DNA from: Sphingobacteriales bacterium
GTDB lineage: Bacteria > Bacteroidota > Bacteroidia > AKYH767-A > OLB10
Direction: 5' to 3'
DNA length: 33,213 nucleotides
NCBI GenBank assembly: GCA_021299095.1
Contig: JAJTFW010000021.1
Location: forward strand, 1-33,213
Part shown: positions 8,589 to 30,392 of the stretch, in pieces
How the letters are laid out: every line of letters begins with the position of its first letter
Position numbering within the stretch: position 1 is the stretch's first letter
Program-made: the position numbers and the translations under genes
Notes under the pieces: generated by a model
Seen by the model: the letters and a program-made list of their open reading frames with translations, nothing else
What the model was told of the DNA's origin: nothing
Databases searched by the model: none

Positions 8589-8633
8589 TTCATGCAATGG
8601 CTTGCCTTGATTAGGCAGTGTACCTTTGTTGCT

Positions 8634-10239
8634 ATGAAACAAATCTGCTCCATTTGCTTAACACTTTGCCTATTGCTTTGTAGCGTATTTTTTGCACGAG
8701 CTGGCAATCCGGTAAAGTATACGCTTCGTTTTCCTGAGCCACATACCCACTATGTGGAGGTTGAAATGGAGTTAGACATGCTGAATGGAAAAACCGTCGA
8801 TCTCAGTATGCCGGTTTGGGCGCCTGGTTCCTATCTGGTTCGCGAATTCCCAAGGCATGTTGAGCGTTTCCGTGCATTCGGAGCGAGCTCCGTTCCACTT
8901 CGGCACCTGAAAGTCAGCAAGGATACGTGGAGAGTTGAACTTGAAGGCCAACGTCGTATTCGTATCCGCTATGCAGTGTATGCGAATGAACTGAGTGTTC
9001 GTACCAGTTATATAGATGATGAACACGCCTATTTGAACGGGACCAGTATTTTCCTCTATGCCAAGGGCGGACTTAAGCGTCCCTGCACCGTGAAAGTAGA
9101 GCCATATGCTTCATGGAAACGAATGTCAGTGGCGCTTGATCCAACTGCGAAGAATGATTCATGGACTGTTCAGGCTGATAATTACGATTGCCTGGTTGAC
9201 GCGCCGTTCGAGATTGGAAATCACAGTATATTCCATTTTCAGGCAGCGGGTGTGCCTCATGAGGTTGCCATGTTTGGAATAGATGAATATGACAGCTTGA
9301 GACTTCAAAAAGATATGATGCGTGTTGCTGAAACCTGCACACGGATTTTTGGAACGCACCCATGCAAACGCTATGTTTTCATCGTACACCACTTGCCATC
9401 GGGCGGCGGAGGTCTGGAGCATGAAAATTCGACTACCCTTCAAACTGCGCGCACAACCTATAACGCTGAGAGTGCATATACTGGATTCATGAGTCTGGTA
9501 GCACATGAGTATTTCCATCTTTGGAATGTGAAGCGATTGAGACCTTTGCTACCGACCCCATGAGAATAGTTCAAACACATCGGTGTCCTATTACACAAAG
9601 GGTGCAGCTGTTGCTTTTCTACTTGATATGCAAATTCGCGAAAGGACCGCTGGCAGGAAAAGTCTGGATGATGTGATGCAGGCTATGTACGAGCGGTATT
9701 TCAAAAGCCTCAACAAGGGCTTTACGCGCGCAGATCTTGACCAAATGTGTACGCAAATCGCGGGTGTCGATTTGAGTACATTTTTAAGCGGATTGGTTGA
9801 TTCGCTATCCTTTCCCGATCCTGCGGATGCGCTTTCCGTAGTCGGACTTTCTCTCAAGGATTTGAATCAGGGCTCGATGGTTGCTTGGTCAGGCATTACG
9901 ACAAACGCTAAGGATGGAAAATTGACTGTAAGTGCTATCGAGCGTGGTTCGCCTGCATGGGATGCGGGTATCAATGTAAACGATGAGTTGATTGCCGTTG
10001 ATGAGTTCAGGCTTAGTGATGATTTGACCAAAGTGATATCATCCTACAAGTCTGGTGAAGCTGTTGAAATCATCCTCTCGCGGGCTGGAACGATTCGACG
10101 CATTAAAATGAACTTGAGATCCAATCCGAACGTCAAGTATCAGATCAATCGAATTTCAGGATCAACAAAGGCGGATCATTCCGATACGGGTACTTTACTA
10201 TCCGTTGACGCCAAATTCCGCGCCTGGTCCGGAAAGTGA
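8634..10239 (+). pseudogene. M61 family aminopeptidase with PDZ domain, broken by an internal deletion
   Basis: The family is a zinc glycyl-type aminopeptidase with a C-terminal PDZ domain. Fragment one (8634-9563, 309 aa, signal peptide MKQICSICLTLCLLLCSVFF) has the N-terminal domain and the zinc site HEYFH (about 291-295), then NVKRLRP. It then falls into five unrelated residues and a TGA. In the +1 frame, homology restarts at about 9550 with YRPHENSS, then SVSYYTKGAAVAFLLDM, and runs to a PDZ domain (TVSAIERGSPAWDAGI) and a stop at 10239. By comparison with the family, about 80 residues between the two parts are gone, including the glutamate that is the third zinc ligand. The loss is out of frame, so neither product should be active. 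The second part also has an in-frame GTG at 9583. Confidence 0.85.
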
Positions 10240-29666: not shown

Positions 29667-30392
29667 TCATGACCAATAGGCCAAGAGTCCAATCAAACCG
29701 CCACCGGTAATTGCAGCCATTTTATAGAGGTTAAAGCGGTGGTTGTTGCTTGATTCGAAGAGGATGGTTGTACTGATGTGAAGGAATATGCCAATCACAA
29801 TGGCCATCAGTGCCGGATAGGCGGCCCGAATCATTTCGCCACTGGCTTCATGTGCCCACATGGAGAAGAAGGCCCCCAGCGGGGCCATCGCAGCGAAAAT
29901 CAACAAATAAAGGAATGCGTAGCGGCGTGATAAACCTGATGCCGTTAGCATGCTCGTGAGCGCAAAGGCTACAGGTGCATGGTGTAACATGATTCCGTAC
30001 AAGAGTCCATGGCCATGGCCATCCTGTCCTGTGTCGCTTGACAAAGGCATTCCTTCCAGGAAACTATGCAACGAGAGGCTCAGCATCATGGCGAGCGGAA
30101 ACCGGTTTTGATTATGGTCATGGACATGCACGTGGCCATGCTCTATCCCCTCGGAGAAAAACTCCAGAATGATCTGGATTAAAAAACCTGCCAGGATCCA
30201 AGCGCCGATACCAGGACCTGAATTGGCGTAAGTTTCGGGCATCAGGTGCAAAACAGTGAGTGCAAACAGGAAAGCTCCGGAAAAAGCGAGAATAAGTTTT
30301 AGCAGGTGAGGTGAAGGGTTCCGGATGAGAAAAAACAGTGTCCCGCTCACCAAAACCGAGAGAAAGAGGAGAATGAGGTCGGTTGTATTCAT
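29667..30392 (-). CDS. ZIP family divalent-metal transporter
   Basis: A 241-residue inner-membrane protein with about eight hydrophobic helices, the length of bacterial ZIP proteins. The metal-site motifs are HSFLEG at 109-114 (TM4) and HHAPVA at 137-142 (TM5), with a further LHLMPE at about 49-53. Two histidine-rich loops, HGHVHVHDH (85-93) and GHGHG (125-129), probably bind metal before transport. It likely imports zinc or another divalent metal; the exact ion cannot be told. Its ATG overlaps the methyltransferase stop (ATGA), so the two are coupled. Confidence 0.92.
   Translation of the reverse strand: MNTTDLILLFLSVLVSGTLFFLIRNPSPHLLKLILAFSGAFLFALTVLHLMPETYANSGPGIGAWILAGFLIQIILEFFSEGIEHGHVHVHDHNQNRFPLAMMLSLSLHSFLEGMPLSSDTGQDGHGHGLLYGIMLHHAPVAFALTSMLTASGLSRRYAFLYLLIFAAMAPLGAFFSMWAHEASGEMIRAAYPALMAIVIGIFLHISTTILFESSNNHRFNLYKMAAITGGGLIGLLAYWS

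Follow-up and report, generated by a model that had tools for sequence, protein, structure and literature searches.

A probable recent out-of-frame deletion in the gene for a secreted M61-family aminopeptidase of a Sphingobacteriales bacterium

Background

The glycyl aminopeptidases of the M61 family (MEROPS M61) comprise an N-terminal domain (Pfam PF17899), a catalytic domain (PF05299) and a PDZ domain, and the solved M61 relatives are 4fgm, 8j9c and 8j9d. In an intact orthologue (L003), the PF05299 profile was matched at positions 2-118 and the solved protein 4fgm was matched over its length. The gene considered in this study shares the domain order of the family and its HEYFH motif, and is 42-60% identical to orthologues from Bacteroidota. 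Unlike the members of the family, it is without 76 residues, including the glutamate of the EGFT motif, and is split over two reading frames.

The gene lies in a stretch of 33,213 nucleotides (contig JAJTFW010000021.1 of assembly GCA_021299095.1, forward strand), referred to as the window, which represents the whole or a part of contig C88 of the source genome. This genome (G000) is a draft of 2.51 Mb in 93 contigs, with a completeness of 96%, and its relatives are uncultured Bacteroidota. The window gene was aligned with 23 intact relatives, giving an alignment of 24 sequences, and its context, its state and the distribution of related genes were analyzed.

Gene context and distribution

A gene order of GLPGLI-like, SdpI-like, M61, OmpA-like and LVIVD protein genes is common to the window, to a genome of the same genus (G003) and to G007 and G022. 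The M61 gene is a single open frame at the syntenic locus of all three of these genomes, and the window frame is thus disrupted relative to intact syntenic orthologues, as is expected of a pseudogene. The remaining window ORFs with Pfam matches each appear as a single open frame. For one of them, a ZIP transporter ORF of 241 aa at 29670-30392, the match to the Pfam Zip profile was confined to its C-terminal half (best stretch 167-318).

A close M61 copy (at least 42% identity, or partial) was present in about half of the 24 family genomes, and most of the remaining ones had only a distant paralogue (25-30%), orthologues and paralogues being separated here by identity and synteny and not by a tree. 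Such a paralogue, intact and 571 aa long, is also carried by the source genome on contig C80 and has the motifs HELFH and EGFTTYY. The 641 bp that follow the OmpA gene of G002 contain no M61 gene, and no close copy was found in that assembly. A different ORF (VLSDYWNKAIQVVDSMNEDAF..., perhaps DinB-like; L159, 6918-7558) takes the place of M61 beside the OmpA-like gene there, so the site is variable in the genus. Two apparent further cases proved unfounded. The seeming absence of M61 from G001 is explained by a contig break, an intact-looking tail being present at the start of contig C92, and a short match in G021, taken as a candidate second broken gene, lies at a contig end with its frame intact.

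Structure of the disrupted gene

The first ORF (8592-9563, plus strand) matched Peptidase_M61_N (PF17899) over its full length with an E value of 2.2e-51 and contains HEYFH, the HExxH zinc motif, while the Peptidase_M61 profile (PF05299) was covered only at positions 2-21 of 118, so that no single frame of the window gene holds a complete catalytic domain. The native start is likely the ATG at 8634, and the N terminus that it would give, MKQICSICLTLCLLLCSVFFARAG, is hydrophobic and looks like a signal peptide. Both the Pfam matches and the orthologue alignment place the N-terminal half of the gene at 8634-9545.

In agreement with the preliminary description, homology to M61 orthologues in the first frame ends at ...VKRLRP (9545) and is picked up in another frame at YRPHENS (9550), which confines the frame change to 9546-9549; ORF reading places a premature TGA of the first frame just past this junction, at 9561-9563. 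The C-terminal half (9550-10239, plus strand) comprises the end of the catalytic domain, including the YRPHENSSNTSVSYYTKG region, and the PDZ domain in the new frame, with its own stop intact. The largest ORF of this half begins at GTG 9583 (9583-10239), the frame being open from 9550. The N-terminal and C-terminal halves are 58% and 45% identical to G003 (E values of 1e-111 and 5e-57, respectively), where their counterparts are contiguous in one frame of 628 aa, and chance similarity is therefore not an issue. At 10170-10239 the M61 C terminus bears a short extension or insertion of about 7-14 residues (TKADHSDTGTLLSV...) that is absent from the aligned orthologues and leaves the frame unaffected.

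Size and content of the lesion

The KR(L/M/I)RP motif and the Y-R/H-P/R-x-E-N motif are exactly 76 residues apart in all 23 intact relatives, which sharpens the earlier estimate, from comparison with the family, of roughly 80 lost residues. The four bases TTGC at 9546-9549 (plus strand) thus stand where the relatives have 228, a net loss of 224 bp, and since 224 is not a multiple of three the frame is shifted and the first ORF stops at the TGA described above. The missing stretch runs from LGPF-Y--E-YT--L---EG(F/I)T-(Y/F)YDD... to ESSFDAWIK and represents nearly the whole Pfam M61 catalytic segment. Within it falls the glutamate of the conserved (S/A)EGFTAYYDD motif, which we take to be the third zinc ligand from pattern homology between M1 and M61 and from general knowledge, and the downstream EG(F/I)T ligand is consequently missing from the window gene, as had been claimed. 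When the 93 G003 residues that correspond to the lost segment were used to search the genome, the segment was not found elsewhere in the assembly, the only matches being the paralogue on C80 (33% identity) and a residual right edge in C88.

Microhomology between two Arg-Pro codon pairs had been proposed as the cause of the deletion, but both pairs are retained (AGACCT at 9540-9545 and CGACCC at 9553-9558), each at its normal place relative to the orthologues, and this explanation fails because a repeat-mediated deletion leaves one copy. In the orthologues, no more than three bases in a row agree between the edges when these are compared at the 224-bp offset. A few bases of microhomology within TTGC itself may have been involved. 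Only one direct repeat was detected in the vicinity, with 16-nt copies at 9265 and 9512, neither of which adjoins the junction.

State of the two halves

No stop was present in the two frames examined (8634-9545 and 9550-10236, 1599 nt). About 3-4% of random substitutions would create a stop, and the stop-free frames limit neutral divergence since inactivation to at most 4-6% at the 95% level. A lower ceiling of about 2% (95%) was obtained from the 66 positions that are invariant in the 23 relatives, none of which is changed in the window gene. When its divergence was compared with that predicted by the N-terminal half, the C-terminal half showed no signal of relaxed evolution (residual -0.03, sd 0.04), and this divergence falls inside the range covered by intact orthologues. 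The absence of stops, the unchanged invariant codons and the undiverged C-terminal half together indicate that the lesion is either recent or not real. The earlier view that both halves are otherwise undamaged is thus borne out, and its dating of the event as recent holds in part: if the lesion is real, we infer an age below roughly 2% neutral divergence, but the lack of decay in either half fits an artefact equally well.

Interpretation of the lesion

We consider it probable that a recent deletion, out of frame and with a net size of 224 bp, inactivated the gene for a secreted M61-family aminopeptidase and that the deletion is carried by the organism itself. Translation from the native start would yield a product of about 310-320 residues ending in LLPTP, which would keep the N-terminal domain and HEYFH and lose the third zinc ligand together with the remaining catalytic domain; such a product should be inactive and the enzyme activity lost. 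Of the C-terminal half, either nothing would be translated or just a fragment initiated at an internal start. The organism probably tolerates the loss, because the gene occurs patchily across the family and an intact, distant M61 paralogue is kept in the genome.

The principal alternative, which we regard as unlikely though worth serious attention, is that the gene of the organism is intact and that its consensus lost 224 bp during assembly. The division of the draft into 93 contigs counts against a real deletion, and the fresh state of both halves, which show full family constraint and no second lesion as in a living gene, is equally expected if the assembly deleted part of an intact gene. 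The contigs of G001 also break in or beside the M61 gene (the start of C92 falls inside the M61 tail, and C154 ends short of SdpI), so that assembly may be difficult at this locus, or the locus may be polymorphic. Contigs C92 and C91 of that genome (L160 and L161) are near-identical, each 4276 bases long, and in both the OmpA-like gene lies 200 bases from the contig start, which suggests that strains are mixed or contigs duplicated here. Against an artefact, collapse of an assembly normally requires a repeat of k-mer length, whereas the edges offer no such repeat in the relatives and the 16-nt repeat is not at the junction; in addition, the missing segment is on no other contig. The lack of a k-mer-length repeat and the single open frames of the rest of the window make it more likely that the deletion is real, at least in some of the population.

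It is very improbable that selection maintains the gene in a functional form, either as two ORFs or as a truncated pseudoenzyme. Both ORFs are long and conserved and GTG 9583 could start the second, but the core of the catalytic fold is deleted and the full-length close relatives examined in the family and class, all in one frame, include no two-ORF form, the finding that had been named as counter-evidence to decay. A non-catalytic pair, in which a truncated N-terminal product that retains half of the zinc site is kept beside a separately started C-terminal PDZ product, is scarcely credible, and a programmed frameshift was rejected since it cannot restore the 74-76 missing residues.

Comparison with known systems

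The finding matters mainly for annotation, in which the two ORFs should be entered as a single disrupted M61 gene rather than as two proteins. No general principle is at stake, and the case illustrates the dispensability of a secreted M61 peptidase in its family. Gene loss by internal deletion is already familiar, and the recent deletion favoured here is an ordinary recent pseudogene with nothing distinctive about it. It resembles other recent bacterial internal-deletion pseudogenes in having one frame-disrupting deletion, an otherwise intact sequence and an intact orthologue at the locus of its relatives.
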